Source: Segatella copri (GTDB taxonomy: Bacteria; Bacteroidota; Bacteroidia; Bacteroidales; Bacteroidaceae). Taken from it: a stretch of 64,000 nucleotides of DNA. A program made the translations under genes and the position numbers. The stretch's first letter is position 1, and the number at the start of each line of letters is the position of its first letter. The DNA lies in contig NZ_VZCB01000045.1 in the NCBI RefSeq assembly GCF_009494395.1, forward strand, positions 1 through 64,000, written 5' to 3'. A model generated the notes under the pieces. That model did not search any database, had not been told where the DNA came from, and saw nothing but the letters and a program-made list of their open reading frames with translations. Below are positions 27,373-45,099 of the stretch, piece after piece.

Positions 27373-27566
27373 TAGCCCCCTTCCAGCCCGCCTTCTAGCC
27401 CCCGTTCTTGCCGAGTCAGAAAAGGAGCGCAAGGCTCGTAGCCCCCTTCCAGCCCTCTTCTAGCCCCCGTTCTTGCCGAGCCAGAAAAGGAGCGCAAGGC
27501 TCGTAGCCCCCTTCCAGCCCCCTTCTAGCCCCCGTTCCCAGCGATTCCATCGCTGGTCCCCCCTAG
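27373..27566. repeat. 65-66 base C-rich tandem array ending in the palindromic repeat (copy E)
   Basis: Two full units (27373-27438, 27439-27503) and a partial third (from 27504) share a TAGCCCCCTTCCAGCCC start. In the third, the unit changes after CCCCCGTTC into the palindrome 27538-27556: arms CCAGCGA and TCGCTGG around the loop TTCCA. The palindrome is a variant of those near the transposase at 34-35.5 kb, with the same loop and compensating stem changes. Confidence 0.8.
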
Positions 27567-33849: not shown

Positions 33850-34096
33850 TGCTCCTTTTCTCCTCCCGTCTCCAATATCCCCCTCTTTCCTTCGCCTCCA
33901 ATATCTCCTCTCTCGCCTCCCTTTCCTTTCTTTCCTCTCTCGCTTCCCTTTCCCCTCTCGCTTCTCTTTCCTCTCTCGCTTCTCTTTCCTTTCTTTCCTC
34001 TCTCGCTTCCCTTTCCTCTCTTTCCTTTCTCGCCTCCCTTTTCCCCTCTTTCCTCCCTTTCCCCTCTCGCCTCCCTTTCCCCCTCTCGCCTCCGTT
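33850..34096. repeat. Polypyrimidine tract of degenerate CTCTCGC/CTTTCC units
   Basis: About 240 bases of the plus strand are nearly all C and T, built of degenerate units such as CTCTCGCCTCC, CTCTCGCTTCC and CTTTCTTTCC. It runs directly into palindrome copy A. Read on the minus strand it gives an Arg/Lys/Glu/Gly low-complexity frame, judged non-coding. Such a tract can form triplex DNA and slip during replication. Confidence 0.8.
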
Positions 34097-34119
34097 CCAA
34101 GCGATTCCATCGCTTGGTC
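34081..34119. repeat. Palindromic repeat copy A, 3' of the transposase gene
   Basis: The flank CCCTCTCGCCTCCGTTC leads to a palindrome at 34097-34117: arms CCAAGCGA and TCGCTTGG around the loop TTCCA. It lies 25 bases beyond the transposase stop codon. Copies B, C and D share flank and palindrome almost exactly. Confidence 0.9.
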
Positions 34120-34143
34120 TCCTTTCTCCAAGTCTCGTTATCT

Positions 34144-35325
34144 CTATTCCCCTTCAGCAATCCTTTCCGCCATCTCGTTCAGCTCCAGGCATTCCTCTCT
34201 GGTAATAGTTTTCTTCTCCATATGATACTCCCAGGGGCTAATCTGCAGCAGCAGCCCTTCAGAGCAAGCATCGAAGCTCTCCCCACAAGGCTTATACAAC
34301 CGTGGAAAACCATTCTCCCTCAAAAGCACGATCCTGTACCCCCGATTCATAGCCTCGCGCAAAACCTCCTTCTCCTTTATTGAAATAGCAGCGCTCACCA
34401 GCACGCCTCCACGTTCGCCGCAAGCCAGCCATTCCTTGCGCAAGCGGCACAAATCCTCCTCCGAATACCTGCGATGCACAATCACCGCCACCTTATCAGG
34501 AATATCGAGCAAGAAACAGTTACCCACCATCTGGCATCTGCGTCCCGCCACCACCTTATTCAGCATCACAGTAAAAAGCTCAGGGTTCATCCTCTTGACC
34601 ATCAGTCTTCTAGGGTTATCATCCAAGTACTTCTTCCACCTCTTCAGTTGGCCTTCATGCAGCAGAAGCTTGTCATTGTACCCCAATTCAAAGAGCCCCT
34701 TTCCAGTCATCTTTTTCATCCCACAAATTCTCCTGTAGGCCCTGTTGCATCCCAGCTTGAATCCTTTCACCACCATTCCCAGCGAATCCATCTCCTTTCC
34801 TCTTTTCGCCGTCATCCCCATAGAATCAGCTTTCTCCTCGCTTGTCAAGGCAGCGGCGTTCTCCTCGCTCGTCAAGGCAGCGGCGTTCTCCTGGCTCGTC
34901 AAGGCAGCGGCTTTCTCCATAGTCTCCGCCGAGGTCTGTCCCCCTCTCGCCTCCGTTCCAAGCGATTCCATCGCTTGGTCCCCTCTCAAGTCCTCCTTCA
35001 CCCTCACAATCAAGTGCACATGATCCGGCATGATGCAAACCTTCCAAACCTCCACCTGGGGATAATATCTGTGAATTTTCGGAATTTCCTCCGTCACGAT
35101 AGCCGTTCCCAATTCCGAAAGCATCACCTTAGGCGCATCGCCATCCCCCGGTCGAGCATTCACCCGTCCCTCCAGTCTTCCCAGCAGAGGCATGCGTCCC
35201 TCCACCACAAGCGTCAGCATATAAGTCCCTTTCTCATGGTAATCATGCCAGGGGCTCCTGCGTTTCATAGAGTGCCTGGTTTCGCGCACCTCCAGTCCTC
35301 TAGCTATAGCTTCATCTCTTTCCAT
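34144..35325 (-). CDS. REP-associated-type Y1 transposase with an inserted repeat and a C-terminal Rossmann-like domain
   Basis: A 393-residue protein. Residues about 30-110 and 185-240 form an IS200/Y1 (HUH) nuclease: the H102-V-H104 metal motif in MPDHVHLIV, the probable catalytic Y197 in NRAYRRI, and NPRRLMVKR after it, as in REP-associated transposases. Between the HUH motif and the tyrosine helix lies an insert of about 72 residues: the palindromic repeat translated as GDQAMESLGTEARGG (115-129) and four AAALTSEEN-type nonapeptide repeats (138-165). Residues about 240-393 (GGVLVSAAISIKEKEVLREA, then VLLRENGF, and LLQISPWEYH) resemble a DprA/SMF-like Rossmann domain. The HUH core looks intact, so activity is possible. 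Confidence 0.85.
   Translation of the reverse strand: MERDEAIARGLEVRETRHSMKRRSPWHDYHEKGTYMLTLVVEGRMPLLGRLEGRVNARPGDGDAPKVMLSELGTAIVTEEIPKIHRYYPQVEVWKVCIMPDHVHLIVRVKEDLRGDQAMESLGTEARGGQTSAETMEKAAALTSQENAAALTSEENAAALTSEEKADSMGMTAKRGKEMDSLGMVVKGFKLGCNRAYRRICGMKKMTGKGLFELGYNDKLLLHEGQLKRWKKYLDDNPRRLMVKRMNPELFTVMLNKVVAGRRCQMVGNCFLLDIPDKVAVIVHRRYSEEDLCRLRKEWLACGERGGVLVSAAISIKEKEVLREAMNRGYRIVLLRENGFPRLYKPCGESFDACSEGLLLQISPWEYHMEKKTITREECLELNEMAERIAEGE
34831..34914. repeat. 27-base tandem repeats inside the transposase gene
   Basis: About three units of 27 bases, starting TCCTCGCTCGTCAAGGCAGC on the plus strand, encode AAALTSEEN nonapeptides. The array is in frame and lies 5' (plus strand) of palindrome copy B, with a short spacer. 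Confidence 0.85.
34941..34987. repeat. Palindromic repeat copy B, inside the transposase gene
   Basis: The same flank (CCCCTCTCGCCTCCGTTC) and palindrome (34958-34978) as copy A, inserted in frame between the HUH motif and the catalytic tyrosine. Confidence 0.9.
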
Positions 35326-35447
35326 AATAATCCTAATAATATTGTTAATAATAAAGTTCCCTCCTCATCCTCTCGCATAGCAGAAGCAACTCCTTCCTCC
35401 CTTCGTAGCAGAAGCAGCTCCCGCCTTCTCTTCGAGTCTGAGTCTTG

Positions 35448-35490
35448 TCCCCCTCTCGCCTCCGTTCCAAGCGATTCCATCGCTTGGTCC
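35448..35490. repeat. Palindromic repeat copy C, 5' of the transposase gene
   Basis: The flank and palindrome (35467-35487) match copy A. On the plus-strand 5' side there is a short duplication: TAGCAGAAGCAACTCC (near 35379) and TAGCAGAAGCAGCTCC (near 35406). The copy lies about 120 bases upstream of the transposase start codon. Confidence 0.88.
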
Positions 35491-35590
35491 CCCATCTTCG
35501 CCAGCCCCCTCATCTTCATCCTTCCTTCCTTCACTATCTCCTTCACCCGTTCCTCAATCTTCCGCCACGGCTGCCTCAGGTTCACAGTTC

Positions 35591-35812
35591 TCACATAGAT
35601 GCGATGCCCCGGAAGATGCCCAAGATGACTCCCAAAATGATTCCCCAGAAGCCGCTCCAGCAAACCCTCTGTAACCCGAATTTCCTCAAATGAGGAAATC
35701 TTGTCAAAGTCTTTAGCAACCTGGCTCTGATGTCCTCATCAATACCTTCTATCCTCATCAGCCTCTTCAAGGTAGAAAAGATAACCCGGTTGATGACCAC
35801 ATCCAGAGTCAA
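35591..35812 (-). other. Shifted continuation of the upstream small gene
   Basis: This frame (73 residues, LTLDVVINRVIFSTLKRLM through a hydrophobic C-terminal helix FWGIILGVILGIF) begins exactly where the 103-residue gene loses its sense, in the +1 frame. A single skipped base in GACGAAATTG (near 35811) would join them into one protein of about 150 residues with a membrane anchor. It is therefore read as the 3' part of a frameshifted gene, with only a TTG available as an independent start. Confidence 0.45.
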
Positions 35813-36050
35813 TTTCGTCTATTCTGCCTGTCAGGAGTTTGCTCACTTCTGTGGCATCCTCCGCTTTCTTGGTTTCCAATACCGAGTTTACCCCGCAGGC
35901 CTCTTTAGCGACCTTGCAGATAACCTTGTTTGAGCCTACGCAGGCATAGCCACCGGGCTTGGTTTTGTCTATTTTCAGAAATTCCAGAAAGGCTTCCTTC
36001 CCCTGTTCCTGGCTTTTCCCTTCTAATTTAAAAATATTCTTATCTGCCAT
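35739..36050 (-). CDS. Small hypothetical protein, probably frameshifted
   Basis: A 103-residue frame of no known family (MADKNIFKLEGKSQEQGKEA start; lysine- and glutamate-rich). Up to about residue 78 (KLLTGRIDEI) it reads as a normal protein. The last 25 residues (CGHQPGYLFYLEEADEDRRY) look unlike protein, while the +1 frame over the same bases is well formed. It is divergent from the 77-residue gene at 36226, with duplicated GATCTAAGAAGATCT sites between them. Confidence 0.5.
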   Translation of the reverse strand: MADKNIFKLEGKSQEQGKEAFLEFLKIDKTKPGGYACVGSNKVICKVAKEACGVNSVLETKKAEDATEVSKLLTGRIDEIDSGCGHQPGYLFYLEEADEDRRY

Positions 36051-36097
36051 ATTTATTGTCTTATTTATAAGTTGTTTTGTAATTATATTTTTAGTTG

Positions 36098-36143
36098 GAT
36101 CTAAGAAGATCTTAATCCCATGGGTATCGATCTAAGAAGATCT
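36098..36143. promoter_or_regulatory. Duplicated GATCTAAGAAGATCT sites
   Basis: The 15-base word GATCTAAGAAGATCT occurs at 36098-36112 and 36129-36143, 31 bases apart (three helical turns), between two divergent small genes. A related GATCTTCTATC overlaps the promoter at 36174. These look like binding sites for a regulator (inference). Confidence 0.45.
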
Positions 36144-36173
36144 AATTGATTTGTTCATTTCGATAGGATCTTC

Positions 36174-36181
36174 TATCTTTG
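36174..36181 (+). promoter_or_regulatory. -7 box of the 77-residue gene
   Basis: TATCTTTG, 45 bases before the ATG at 36226, partly overlapped by the GATCTTC repeat. Confidence 0.5.
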
Positions 36182-36225
36182 CAACGTGTTTGATAATTAT
36201 ATCGTAGAATTTAACAACGAAATTT

Positions 36226-36459
36226 ATGGAAAAACAATGGATTTCAACTATTGAGCTGCTTAACTTTCTGAAGGAACATCCTAATAAGGAGAAAGAATGC
36301 AGACTCAATTTGGGCTATGGCCTAGGTTCCACCCATTATTGGTATTGGGACCCCGAGACAAACATGTTCATGCACTCCCGCGACTGGGATTTTGAGCCTT
36401 ATACCGCAAGTCAAGTGGTTAAATGGTACGGGGAAGGCAAATGGAAGATTGAACAATGA
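36226..36459 (+). CDS. Small hypothetical protein, aromatic-rich
   Basis: A 77-residue soluble protein of unknown family, rich in tryptophan and tyrosine (STHYWYWDPETNMFMH, VVKWYGEGKWKIEQ). It has a clear promoter and an A-rich start region. Its last 138 bases overlap a convergent minus-strand frame. Confidence 0.6.
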   Translation: MEKQWISTIELLNFLKEHPNKEKECRLNLGYGLGSTHYWYWDPETNMFMHSRDWDFEPYTASQVVKWYGEGKWKIEQ

Positions 36460-36621
36460 ATTGAGAGTGGGGGTGAACGAATAGTTCATCCCCTTGTCGG
36501 TTCTGCTTGGGAGAACTGCATCAAGAGGTAGCTCTCTCAGCGAATAATCCAGCAATGCCACGTTATGCTTCAGTATCTGCTTGGCTTTTTCCTGATTATA
36601 TGTTCTTTCTATTTTTGCCAT
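36322..36621 (-). CDS. Possible small hypothetical protein, convergent overlap
   Basis: A 99-residue frame starting MAKIERTYNQEKAKQILKH with a TAACTTTG promoter box at 36652-36659. The first 50 residues look like protein; the rest lies antisense to the 77-residue gene and may be only a shadow. Either a real overlapping gene or one that lost its stop. Confidence 0.35.
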   Translation of the reverse strand: MAKIERTYNQEKAKQILKHNVALLDYSLRELPLDAVLPSRTDKGMNYSFTPTLNSLFNLPFAFPVPFNHLTCGIRLKIPVAGVHEHVCLGVPIPIMGGT

Positions 36622-36731: not shown

Positions 36732-36823
36732 CGGACGTGAATCTTCTCTGTAATAAGAGAATCAAATCTTCCTGATGATGAGGGAATCTGTTCCTGATGG
36801 GGGAGATTGAGATAAAACAAAAT

Positions 36824-37699
36824 ATGAATCATAACGAAAATAGCGAAGAGATGAATCAAATTACGATGCTCGGAACGGGAAATGCTACGGTTTCCCAGAT
36901 TTATAACACCTGTTTTGTGCTCCAGACTTCCAGCACCCTGATGCTGGTGGATGCGGGCGGAGGAAACGGAATCCTCTCGCAGTTGAAGAAGGTGAATGTT
37001 CAGATTTCTGACATTCATCATCTCTTCGTTACCCATGCCCATACCGACCACGTGCTGGGGGTAATCTGGGTAATCCGAATGGTGGCACAATGTAAGGGAT
37101 ACGAGGGATTGCTCCATGTGTATGGCAACGACAAGGTGATGAAGGTGATCAAGACCATCATCGACATGATTCTTGCCAAGAAGCAACTGGCTAAGGTGGC
37201 TGAAAGGGTGGTGTTCCATCAGCTGGAAGATGGCGATTGTTTTGAGGTGGGGGATATGAAGCTGGAATGCTTTGATATTCAATCTACTAAGGAGAAGCAG
37301 TTCGGATTCCGAGCTGAGCTGCCTGCTGTTTCTGAAGATAATGCTGCATCTGATAATGCTTCTGAAGATAATCATGCTAAGCCTTTGGTCCTGGCGTGTC
37401 TGGGCGATGAGCCTTATAACGAGCAGAACCGTCGCTACATAGAAGGGGCGGACTGGATGATGTGCGAGGCGTTCTGCCTTTATGCCGACCGAGATACGTT
37501 CAAACCTTACGAGAAATGCCACAGCACGGCGCTTGATGCCGGAAAACTGGCGGAGGAACTGGGGGTGAAGAATCTTATCCTGTATCATACGGAGGAGAAA
37601 ACGCTCGCTACCCGTAAAGAAAATTATACCCGTGAAGCTGCCAAGAACTTCAAGGGTAGAATCTTCGTTCCGGATGATTTGGAGGTGATAGAGCTGTAG
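36824..37699 (+). CDS. Metallo-beta-lactamase-fold hydrolase (RNase Z-like)
   Basis: A 291-residue cytoplasmic hydrolase. The core starts at MLGTGNATVSQ, followed by LMLVDAGGG and the metal motif THAHTDHVLG, then a late CHSTALDAGKLAEELGVKNLILYHT segment, as in RNase Z-like phosphodiesterases. Near residue 180 there is a short acidic tandem (SEDNAASDNASEDN). The ATG at 36824 follows an A-rich lead; an ATG at 36797 would add nine residues. The substrate is unknown. Confidence 0.85.
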   Translation: MNHNENSEEMNQITMLGTGNATVSQIYNTCFVLQTSSTLMLVDAGGGNGILSQLKKVNVQISDIHHLFVTHAHTDHVLGVIWVIRMVAQCKGYEGLLHVYGNDKVMKVIKTIIDMILAKKQLAKVAERVVFHQLEDGDCFEVGDMKLECFDIQSTKEKQFGFRAELPAVSEDNAASDNASEDNHAKPLVLACLGDEPYNEQNRRYIEGADWMMCEAFCLYADRDTFKPYEKCHSTALDAGKLAEELGVKNLILYHTEEKTLATRKENYTREAAKNFKGRIFVPDDLEVIEL

Positions 37700-42729: not shown

Positions 42730-45099
42730 CTACTTCTGCTGCTGGAATCGCACGTTGCCGTAGGTGCCATCGGTCTTGTAGCGCTTGGTGTTGAAGATAT
42801 CGTTCACGTTCAGGCTTAGCGAGAGGCGGTCTTTCAGGAAACTCTTGTAGAGCTGGAAGTCGAAGTTGTGCACGTTGTTGATGGTGAGGTATTCGTAGGT
42901 GCCGCTGCTTCGGTAGGAGAACGAGAGGTTCATGTACCAGCCCTTGGGCAGATGGAAGCCGTTGTAGAGGCTGAAGATGTAGTAGGGGTCGTGGAAGCTT
43001 TTCTCCTTGCCCATGCTGACGGCCTTGATGAAGCCCTGCTGGATGCCTGTTTGCACCTGTGGCTCGTAGAAGCCCCAGCGGTGGCGGTAGCCGAGGAAGC
43101 TGCCCCAGTTCCAGCAATGGTCGATGTTGGTCCAGGTGATGTAGCCCGTTTGCGGGTCATCTGAATCGGGTTCGATGATGCTGGTGATGTAATCCTTCAC
43201 GTAGGTGTAGCTTGCCTGGAGGAAGAGGTCGCCGTAGCTTGCCTGGTATTGGAACTCGTAGCGCTGGGATGGCTCCAGCTGGCTGTTTCCTACCTGTCTC
43301 ATGTAGTGGTTTGCGTAAACCGTGCCCGTGTTCAGCTCCTGGAAGGATGGGCGGATTTCGGAAGATCGGTAGCTCAGCGACTGGGAGAATCTGCCTGACT
43401 GATGAGTGAGCAGGAGGGATGGGTAGAGGTTGTCGTATTTGCGATGAAGCGGGGCTTCGGTGGAGGCTGTTCCTGGCGTTCCAGTTCTTCCAGTTTCTGA
43501 ATTACCATTTTCAAAACTTCCAATTCTTCCAATTCCAGTTCTTCCAGTTTCATCTTTCAGATAGTTCAAGCGGCTGTCTACGTGCTCGTATCTCAATCCT
43601 ACTCTTAATGAGAAGGGCTTGAAATCGAGTGAATACTCGGCGAAGACGGCAGCATGGTTTTCCTTGGTGATGCTGTGGGTGGAGGTTCCCTTATCGGCAG
43701 GGGTGTAATCGGTACGCGATTCGCTCTTCACGTAGTTGTACTCGGCGCCCATCATCCAGGTTTGCTTGTCGTTGATGGTGTAGTTGGCGCGGGCCTTTGC
43801 TCCCCAGATGGTTCCATCGCTTTGCGGCAGGAGTGTGAACTTGTTTCTGGCTTCCTGCAGGGGGGTACTTGAGGCGAGGGACCAAGCGATGGAATCGCTT
43901 GGAACGGAGGCAAGGAGGGAGACTGAAGGGAAGCTGCTTGGGGCTAAGAGGACGCTTGGGGCTACGAGGGCGCTTGGGGAGGTGGCTGCTCCTTTTCCTT
44001 TGGCTGCTCCTTTTCCTTTGGCAGCTCCTCTCTCCGAAATCTCATCCACGAATTGAGCCTGCTCCGTGTGCAGCTTCACGAAATCGCCGAAGAAGTTCAG
44101 CTTCCATTTCTCTCCGTATTTGCCCTGGTAGAAGGCGTTTACGTGGTGCTGCCAGTCGTAATAGAAAAACTTGTTGTTGCCCGTTACGTTGTCATCTACG
44201 TGATCGTTGGTCATCGCATAGCTCGTCATCTTGAAAGGCATCGGCTGATGGATGTTGTAGCCGTCGTATTTCACTCCGATGGTTTGCTTTTCAGTCAGGG
44301 CGAGGTCGGCTCCGGCACTCCAGTAGAAGTGGTCGTTGTAGCTGTGCTTGCAGTCGAGGGTGGCGGAGGCAATGTAGGTGGTGGCGTTATCGCCAGCCTG
44401 GCTGCCGCTTACGTAATTCGTAGCGATGTCCTGTTCTTTCCATATTCCCTGCCAGTTGGCGTAGCCCAGTTTGCCGTAGTACGTCATCTTGCCGTGGGTG
44501 TAGGTGAGGTCGAGGTCGTGGTTGTTGCTCACGAAGGAGTCGAAGAGGAAGCCGGAGTTCTCCACGATGGCGAGTCCTTGCAGGTTCTTCTTGGTTGTGA
44601 TGAGTAGCACGCAGCCCACGTTGTTGCCGTATTCAGCTCCGGGATGATGAATCACCTTCACCTCTTTTATCTGTGTAACGGGCAGGTTTTCTACCACGCT
44701 GTAATCCTGCACCTTTCTGTCGTTGATGTAGATTTCGGGTGAGCCGCCGATAAATGCCTGCGGTTTCCCATCCTTGTTTTTGAACATTCCGGGAAGTTTG
44801 GCAAGCACTTCCGTAGCTGTTGGCTCCTTCTCGAGAGAAGTTCCCGAGATGCGAGCCACGATTCCGCCGTTCTTCTGGCGGAATTGCGAGCGGGTTCCCT
44901 TGATGGTTACGGCTGCAAGCTGTTTCTCCCATTGGATGCTGTCCTGGCGCAGCTTTTCCTTTATCGCCTGGATGCTATCTGTAGAAATATTCTTTGCTGT
45001 AGAAATACTCTCTGTTGTAGTGGTCTTTGTCTGTTGAGCGTTTGCCATCATCGGGTTTCCCAGGACGAGCAAGCCGCTCATTATCAATTCATGTTTCAT
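42730..45099 (-). CDS. Outer-membrane beta-barrel (TonB-receptor-like) protein, repeat-invaded and cut before its last strand
   Basis: A 789-residue exported protein. A signal peptide (about 1-21, ending NAQQ) precedes a plug-like domain (about 65-165; LAKLPGMFKNKDGKPQAF, NDRKVQDYSVVENLP) and a barrel of the outer-membrane-protein type 3 group. Two low-complexity inserts interrupt it: about 350-416 (AAKGKG repeats, SALVAPSVLLAPSS, then palindromic repeat copy D read as VPSDSIAWS) and about 515-543 (ETGRTG-type repeats). The frame stops at TAG 42730, but the barrel-closing strand lies just beyond. It is probably non-functional unless the TAG is read through. Its promoter box is at 45179-45186. 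Confidence 0.8.
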   Translation of the reverse strand: MKHELIMSGLLVLGNPMMANAQQTKTTTTESISTAKNISTDSIQAIKEKLRQDSIQWEKQLAAVTIKGTRSQFRQKNGGIVARISGTSLEKEPTATEVLAKLPGMFKNKDGKPQAFIGGSPEIYINDRKVQDYSVVENLPVTQIKEVKVIHHPGAEYGNNVGCVLLITTKKNLQGLAIVENSGFLFDSFVSNNHDLDLTYTHGKMTYYGKLGYANWQGIWKEQDIATNYVSGSQAGDNATTYIASATLDCKHSYNDHFYWSAGADLALTEKQTIGVKYDGYNIHQPMPFKMTSYAMTNDHVDDNVTGNNKFFYYDWQHHVNAFYQGKYGEKWKLNFFGDFVKLHTEQAQFVDEISERGAAKGKGAAKGKGAATSPSALVAPSVLLAPSSFPSVSLLASVPSDSIAWSLASSTPLQEARNKFTLLPQSDGTIWGAKARANYTINDKQTWMMGAEYNYVKSESRTDYTPADKGTSTHSITKENHAAVFAEYSLDFKPFSLRVGLRYEHVDSRLNYLKDETGRTGIGRIGSFENGNSETGRTGTPGTASTEAPLHRKYDNLYPSLLLTHQSGRFSQSLSYRSSEIRPSFQELNTGTVYANHYMRQVGNSQLEPSQRYEFQYQASYGDLFLQASYTYVKDYITSIIEPDSDDPQTGYITWTNIDHCWNWGSFLGYRHRWGFYEPQVQTGIQQGFIKAVSMGKEKSFHDPYYIFSLYNGFHLPKGWYMNLSFSYRSSGTYEYLTINNVHNFDFQLYKSFLKDRLSLSLNVNDIFNTKRYKTDGTYGNVRFQQQK
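43478..43560. repeat. Simple repeat inside the barrel gene
   Basis: Tandem CCAGTTCTTCCAG/CCAATTCTTCCAA-like units encode the ETGRTG and GRIGSFENGN stretch, in frame. Confidence 0.7.
43878..43920. repeat. Palindromic repeat copy D, inside the barrel gene
   Basis: On the minus strand: the flank (TGCCTCCGTTC end) and palindrome 43882-43902 with arms CCAAGCGA/TCGCTTGG and loop TTCCA. It is in the opposite orientation to its host frame compared with copy B. Its 5' side carries tandem units (AAGGAAAAGGAGCAGCC twice and TAGCCCCAAGC twice, about 43925-44030). Confidence 0.9.

Follow-up and report, generated by a model that had tools for sequence, protein, structure and literature searches.

The window analysed here, a stretch of 64,000 nucleotides from Segatella copri (contig NZ_VZCB01000045.1, positions 1 to 64,000), contains a gene like those of REP-associated tyrosine transposases (RAYTs) that is preceded, interrupted and followed by copies of one palindromic repeat. 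We consider it likely that gene and repeat constitute a REPtron, that is, a RAYT together with a REP family that it probably recognises, and that RAYT-driven spread produced the copies, those lying in frame being tolerated in surface loops. RAYT-driven spread is supported by the association of copy number with the gene, synteny in a second genome, shuffle tests, matching between internal and flanking palindromes, the position of the gene on the family tree, the structural match to REP transposase 4er8, and a beta-barrel gene site that lacks the insert in a relative. Against it count the sub-cut-off profile scores, genome G042, several genomes with a second palindrome class (class B) and no RAYT match, the missing GT[AG]G foot, and internal palindromes that outnumber their matches in the flanks. 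G000 denotes the genome of the window, G001 onward the others among the 100 genomes compared, and L numbers denote loci.

The RAYT-like gene and its REP copies

The RAYT-like gene lies on the minus strand, starts at 35325, ends at 34144, and encodes 393 aa. Its HUH motif, H102-V-H104 (35014-35022), is followed by a probable catalytic tyrosine, Y233 (34627-34629), in YLDDNPRR, the Y..NP motif of RAYTs. H102, H104, Y233, N237 and P238, as well as P100 and D101, were invariant in both alignments (25/25 and 77/77 sequences). The preliminary description had assigned the catalytic role to Y197; this residue is not conserved, and Y233 replaces it. The protein matched NCBIfam REP_Tyr_transpos with an E value of 2.4e-6 and 27.5 bits (cut-off 80), and scored 21 bits against Pfam Y1_Tnp (cut-off 23). 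Both scores fall under their cut-offs; an insert splits the domain. The Y1_Tnp search of G000 gave one weak match besides this gene.

The predicted structure has pLDDT of at least 90 for 281 of 393 residues and comprises two domains. Residues 31-226, the HUH domain of the model, match TnpA enzymes (IS608 2a6o: Z 11.2, 103 aligned, rmsd 2.5), and the model also matches 4er8 (Z 11.8, 135 aligned, rmsd 5.3, 17% aligned identity). The C-terminal domain, residues ~252-392 (34150-34572, minus strand), has a DprA/ShosA-like fold, with matches to ShosA 8zva (Z 12.3, 132 aligned, rmsd 3.1) and to DprA 4ljk (Z 11.0, 128 aligned, rmsd 3.4) and 3uqz (Z 9.7). Foldseek also returned the fold matches of both domains. 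Sequence-profile hints were weak (TnpA, E 0.07; DprA, E 0.25), and Pfam DprA had no match in the protein.

The palindrome, CCAAGCGAT-TCC-ATCGCTTGG, has 9-bp arms and a 3-nt loop and is found at 34097-34117, 34958-34978 and 35467-35487, each time with CCTCTCGCCTCCGTTC exactly before it. The three copies, A (34081-34119), B (34941-34987) and C (35448-35490), all on the minus strand, thus share palindrome and flank precisely as first described. As the gene reads from the minus strand, copy C lies upstream of its start codon and copy A just past its stop codon. Copy B is indeed in frame inside the gene, corresponding to residues ~113-129 (palindrome, 116-123) between the HUH motif and the tyrosine, now Y233. 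The palindrome gave no match at up to three mismatches in 100 dinucleotide shuffles of the window. The canonical GT[AG]G foot is absent from this REP, which we term class A; its flanks are GGGGACC and GGAACGG. Across G000 the class A core has variant arms (CCAAGCGAT, CCAGGCGAT, CCGAGCGAT or CCAGCGAT), a loop that is mostly GGA, a G-rich left flank and the right tail GGAACGGRGGC, and decayed variants are present.

Several other features were seen nearby. A pyrimidine-rich array with 9-nt periodicity (33879-34095) directly adjoins copy A. Beside the gene, 35531-36461 holds remnants of sequence that in G042 (L327) lies within longer genes matching Pfam McrBC and AAA_5; in the window this is a broken McrBC-type restriction locus. 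The protein encoded at 36797-37699 has a metallo-beta-lactamase fold and matches anti-Pycsar Apyc1 below threshold.

We searched the 100 genomes for class A with a core-plus-tail pattern, allowing at most one mismatch. G000 had 16 places, G045 had 31, G042 had 2 and G007 had 1; the other 96 genomes had none. With up to three mismatches the pattern matched in 24/100 genomes, at no more than three places per genome outside G000 and G045. These two genomes were also the only ones among the 100 with protein matches of >80% identity, and some RAYT homolog (E<=1e-10) was found in 33. The G045 ortholog is 80-83% identical and has all three REPs at matching places, A and C in synteny around the gene and B at the same site within it. 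Conserved HUH and Y..NP motifs, flanking palindromes that are dispersed in the genome, and a copy number that tracks the ortholog bear out the initial identification of a RAYT-like gene accompanied by a REP family. The preliminary description had also asked whether copy number falls to zero without the transposase. It does fall to background (0-2) in 98 genomes; however, G042 has two exact copies and no RAYT match at E<=1e-10, which counts against strict co-occurrence of REP and RAYT. Judging from its family, the RAYT would act on REP hairpins in single-stranded form and thereby disperse further copies; its cleavage activity, mobility and specificity for class A are putative, and a local preference of the enzyme may account for an excess of REP copies at its own locus.

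The derived insert and internal palindromes of the family

The internal REP belongs to an insert of residues ~114-180 (34786-34986, minus strand) between the HUH strand and helix 182-201. This insert is missing in relatives that are 64-71% identical, in which the HUH-to-Y distance is 70 residues; in G000 the distance is 133. On a FastTree tree of 142 family genes, which carried a long-branch warning, the genes of G000 and G045 are each other's partners. They belong to a supported set of 16 genes, 13 of them without an internal palindrome. The insert is therefore derived, as both the tree position and its absence from the closest relatives other than G000 and G045 indicate, and the alternative raised in the preliminary description, that residues 112-184 are an ancestral domain, does not hold. 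The insert is predicted to be mostly disordered (pLDDT 40-55 over residues 121-180, and 72 over 111-120). A repeat search revealed three copies of a 27-nt tandem repeat in it (34829-34918, minus strand). The G045 gene has a different repeat unit here: its internal REP and tail are nearly unchanged, and the remaining insert consists of poorly alignable repeats. A stretch at the far end of the insert (34773-34794, minus strand), with three mismatches, may be a decayed REP copy; this assignment is uncertain, the stretch being partly native sequence. We infer that one REP entered the gene in an ancestor shared by G000 and G045, at the surface loop that joins the HUH strand to helix 182-201 and with the frame kept, and that short repeats then expanded beside it. 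In other members of the family the palindromes occupy a second loop, after the helix.

Homologous genes were examined for palindromes with arms of at least 8 and a loop of 3-7. Of 81 unique stop-to-stop ORFs from the homolog loci of the genome set (a few of which are not RAYTs), 52 carry one. For a shuffle test we used the 73 ORFs with PDHxH and dropped 8. A palindrome was present in the tested part of 45/73 genes, compared with a mean of 7.8 and a maximum of 14 in 50 synonymous-codon shuffles, and at 10-180 aa after HUH in 42/73 (mean 3.7, maximum 7; 50 shuffles). Eighty named homologous loci, among the matches listed, come from Prevotella, Prevotellaceae, Muribaculaceae, Bacteroidaceae, Candidatus Sodaliphilus and uncultured Bacteroidales/Bacteroidia records, which suggest the label Prevotella-type used here for the host. 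A usable gene was obtained from 77 of them, and 40/77 had a palindrome between HUH and Y (2.1 in 100 shuffles, maximum 6); as both sets come from one group, this set is not fully independent of the first.

Pooling 69 and 77 genes, a few of them identical, gave 142 non-redundant genes, 80 with an HUH-Y palindrome and 62 without a perfect internal palindrome. For 22 of the 80, a matching palindrome was found within the 700-nt flanks, compared with 2.9 (maximum 10) in 2000 permutations. Palindromes within the ~300 nt between HUH and Y in 80/142 genes, against matches in 1400 nt of flank for 22/80, make plain local insertion insufficient as an explanation.

Over half of the HUH-Y palindromes (57/99) are found 38-52 aa past HUH, on the far side of the next helix; in G000 and G045 the distance is 20 aa and the palindrome precedes that helix. 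Because two separate loops are occupied, the internal palindrome had at least two origins, and probably more. At 38-52 aa after HUH, 45/52 odd-length palindromes are in one reading phase. Constant phase was rejected as proof of one ancestral insertion, the CCGAAT class being in two other phases; the encoded peptides may filter phase. L057 and L149 carry one 21-nt palindrome in differing phases; the tree joins the two as sisters, so that a second insertion and a local shift of frame are equally likely. A universal tetranucleotide foot was also rejected: CCGT was commonest near internal palindromes (50/98), but it fell to 19/54 after similar arms were collapsed.

An alternative is that the internal REP is kept because it is functional: the transposase would limit its own expression by binding the hairpin that its gene or mRNA carries, and pairing would be under selection. 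Comparison of the 80 palindrome genes with their nearest relatives revealed 26 stem pairs in which both bases had changed and pairing was retained, besides 46 broken, 460 unchanged and 161 unalignable pairs. Independence would give about 1-2 double changes by a rough estimate, and compensatory change is suggestive; the query genes were, however, chosen for having a palindrome, and a swap for another REP would also alter both arms. The palindrome is retained at up to one mismatch in 52/63 alignable cases. The palindrome classes jointly follow the tree (53 changes vs 74.8 shuffled, 0/200 as low), and this, like the preferred position beyond the helix, favours such a function; however, the GCTGxGGC class alone does not follow it (15 changes vs 15.4), and presence is only weakly clustered (38 changes vs 46.5, 4/500 as low; at least 23 by supported branches, with gain and loss not told apart). 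The 62 genes without an internal palindrome include the nearest relatives outside the G000/G045 pair. We regard a retained function as unlikely, while ranking it first among the alternatives to RAYT-driven spread.

REP copies in other reading frames

A window search revealed a fourth exact palindrome copy at 43882-43902, on the opposite strand. It lies, together with repeats, in an in-frame insert (43855-44030) of a beta-barrel gene (42730-45099, minus strand; Pfam OMP_b-brl_3, E 1.1e-48) whose product reads as TonB-receptor-like. The insert is 176 nt long in G000, with the frame kept, whereas the relative in G042 has 29 nt at this site. A second insert in the same gene, 43455-43567, has no palindrome and is ~111 nt long vs 9 nt in G042. 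A variant copy (27537-27557, minus strand) stands at the end of a spaced 65-bp tandem repeat (27392-27557). The unaligned stretch at this site is ~280 nt in the window, ~54 nt in G042 and 25 nt in G045, as estimated from match coordinates, the alignment itself being poor.

The preliminary description suggested a REP-like system that inserts into coding sequence. The beta-barrel copy, missing in G042, is in line with this; as a general property of class A, however, the suggestion was rejected, because the copies in G000 and G045 are mainly intergenic. When the 16 class A loci of G000 were inspected by eye, the RAYT and beta-barrel copies alone lay in convincing genes; the ORFs covering the others were short or overlapped better genes. 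In G045, 3/28 sampled copies were in an ORF of at least 150 aa, the three RAYT-locus copies and two nearby ones being outside the sample.

Class B, TGTTGCTGT-NNN-ACAGCAACA, is a sister REP class to class A. At up to one mismatch it was found in 19/100 genomes, all in the genus of the window; 16 of these have a RAYT match at E<=1e-10, and G005, G018 and G031 do not. A further palindrome, GCTGCGGC-NNN-GCCGCAGC, was present in 8/100 genomes, and the RAYT gene at L085 (G059) has one long insert with five in-frame GCTGCGGC palindromes. Outside RAYT genes, 18 of 20 sampled class B copies in G034, G059 and G033 lie in ORFs of at least 250 aa; the sample (L233-L251) was drawn from at least 26 copies, and L241 and the first L242 copy are doubtful, being near the ORF start. 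Of 16 host ORFs scanned, 15 matched Pfam families and L249 matched none. The families include GltD-type oxidoreductase, acyl-CoA dehydrogenase, GH97, GH43, GH32, SusD-like, methylmalonyl-CoA mutase (twice), GcpE and NRPS. In L237 (SusD-like) and L238 (GH32) the copy is near the N-terminus, directly before a Cys, a position that on reading resembles a lipoprotein signal peptide. For MutA and GltD, the differences among relatives fall in a variable loop, and the MutA of L268 has no class B copy. As net length differs little and further MutA relatives have many Cys at this place, clean insertion in these two genes is putative. Class B in host genes may thus reflect either insertion or replacement of a variable loop.

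The palindrome-free sites bear on a further alternative, namely that the copies spread long ago and that what is left of the transposase is a decayed or domesticated remnant. The single weak additional Y1_Tnp match, the decayed REP variants of G000 and the repeat-filled insert favour this. The frames are open and HUH and Y conserved in the genes of both species (G000 and G045), however, and close relatives have REP-free sites; we consider a remnant somewhat less probable still than a retained function. An ordinary coding repeat or terminator-like hairpin, unrelated to the enzyme, is a highly improbable reading. Despite the simple tandem repeats in the insert, the palindrome belongs to a REP family that is dispersed in the genome and has a conserved tail on one side; it is associated with the ortholog and matched at the same loci.

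Relation to known systems

RAYT-driven spread with in-frame tolerance can be compared with described systems. The preliminary description took a repeat inside the transposase frame to be undescribed. This proved incorrect: in the sections of Quentin et al. 2018 (PMC6006769) that treat TnpA_REP subclass 2.4 (Bertels group 4), genes of this subclass carry in-frame REPs, generally between HuH and Y, as copy B does here, together with flanking REPs. The REP region of subclass 2.4 is variable and modelled as peripheral there, and Bacteroidetes are among the hosts. The insertion lies between beta3 and alphaC, as in G000 and G045, whereas most relatives of our gene have it after the helix. Subclass 2.4 is described with the motifs NH[IFV]H and YIxNNP and without the core extension that most other subclasses have; the present protein has PDHVH, YLDDNP and a C-terminal extension, the domain of residues 252-392. 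Because of these differences in motifs and extension, we set it apart by description and did not file it under subclass 2.4. The REPs of subclass 2.6 are also called atypical in that source. Intragenic REPs in general had likewise been reported: the relevant part of PMC3733652 describes GTAG/CGTC REPs and Rickettsia palindromic elements in genes for unrelated proteins. The copies in such genes here resemble them; unlike them, they come with a candidate enzyme that carries a matching palindrome.

The protein shares with the E. coli-type RAYT 4er8 the HUH fold, the Y..NP motif and nearby REP hairpins, and differs in its extra insert, its C-terminal domain and REPs without the GT[AG]G foot. With DprA and ShosA (4ljk, 3uqz, 8zva) the C-terminal domain shares a fold (Z 9.7-12.3) at 11-18% identity; here the domain is fused to a RAYT, and single-stranded DNA binding is putative. 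A literature search found neither a RAYT-DprA fusion nor a Prevotella REP system in print, and the sections of PMC6006769 covered by it make no mention of DprA. What is new here is a Prevotella-type lineage that lacks the subclass 2.4 motifs, has two insertion loops and carries a C-terminal domain of DprA-like fold; so is a sister REP class found mostly inside long reading frames. The fusion suggests a link, not found in print by this search, between REP spread and the handling of single-stranded DNA.

At one locus after another a candidate enzyme can be paired with a palindrome, and dozens of natural variants as well as palindrome-free sites are available; recognition, in-frame insertion and loop tolerance thereby become testable. 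To our knowledge, no transposase is known for Rickettsia palindromic elements. We tentatively propose, as a reading with somewhat less than even chances, that Prevotella-type bacteria have a distinct lineage of DprA-fused REP transposases whose palindromes have entered reading frames again and again and stayed there, in the transposase gene itself and, for one class, in metabolic and surface-protein genes, and that the internal copy is a maintained recognition or autoregulatory site. If true, in-frame palindromic elements like those of Rickettsia would gain a candidate for the enzyme that mobilises them.
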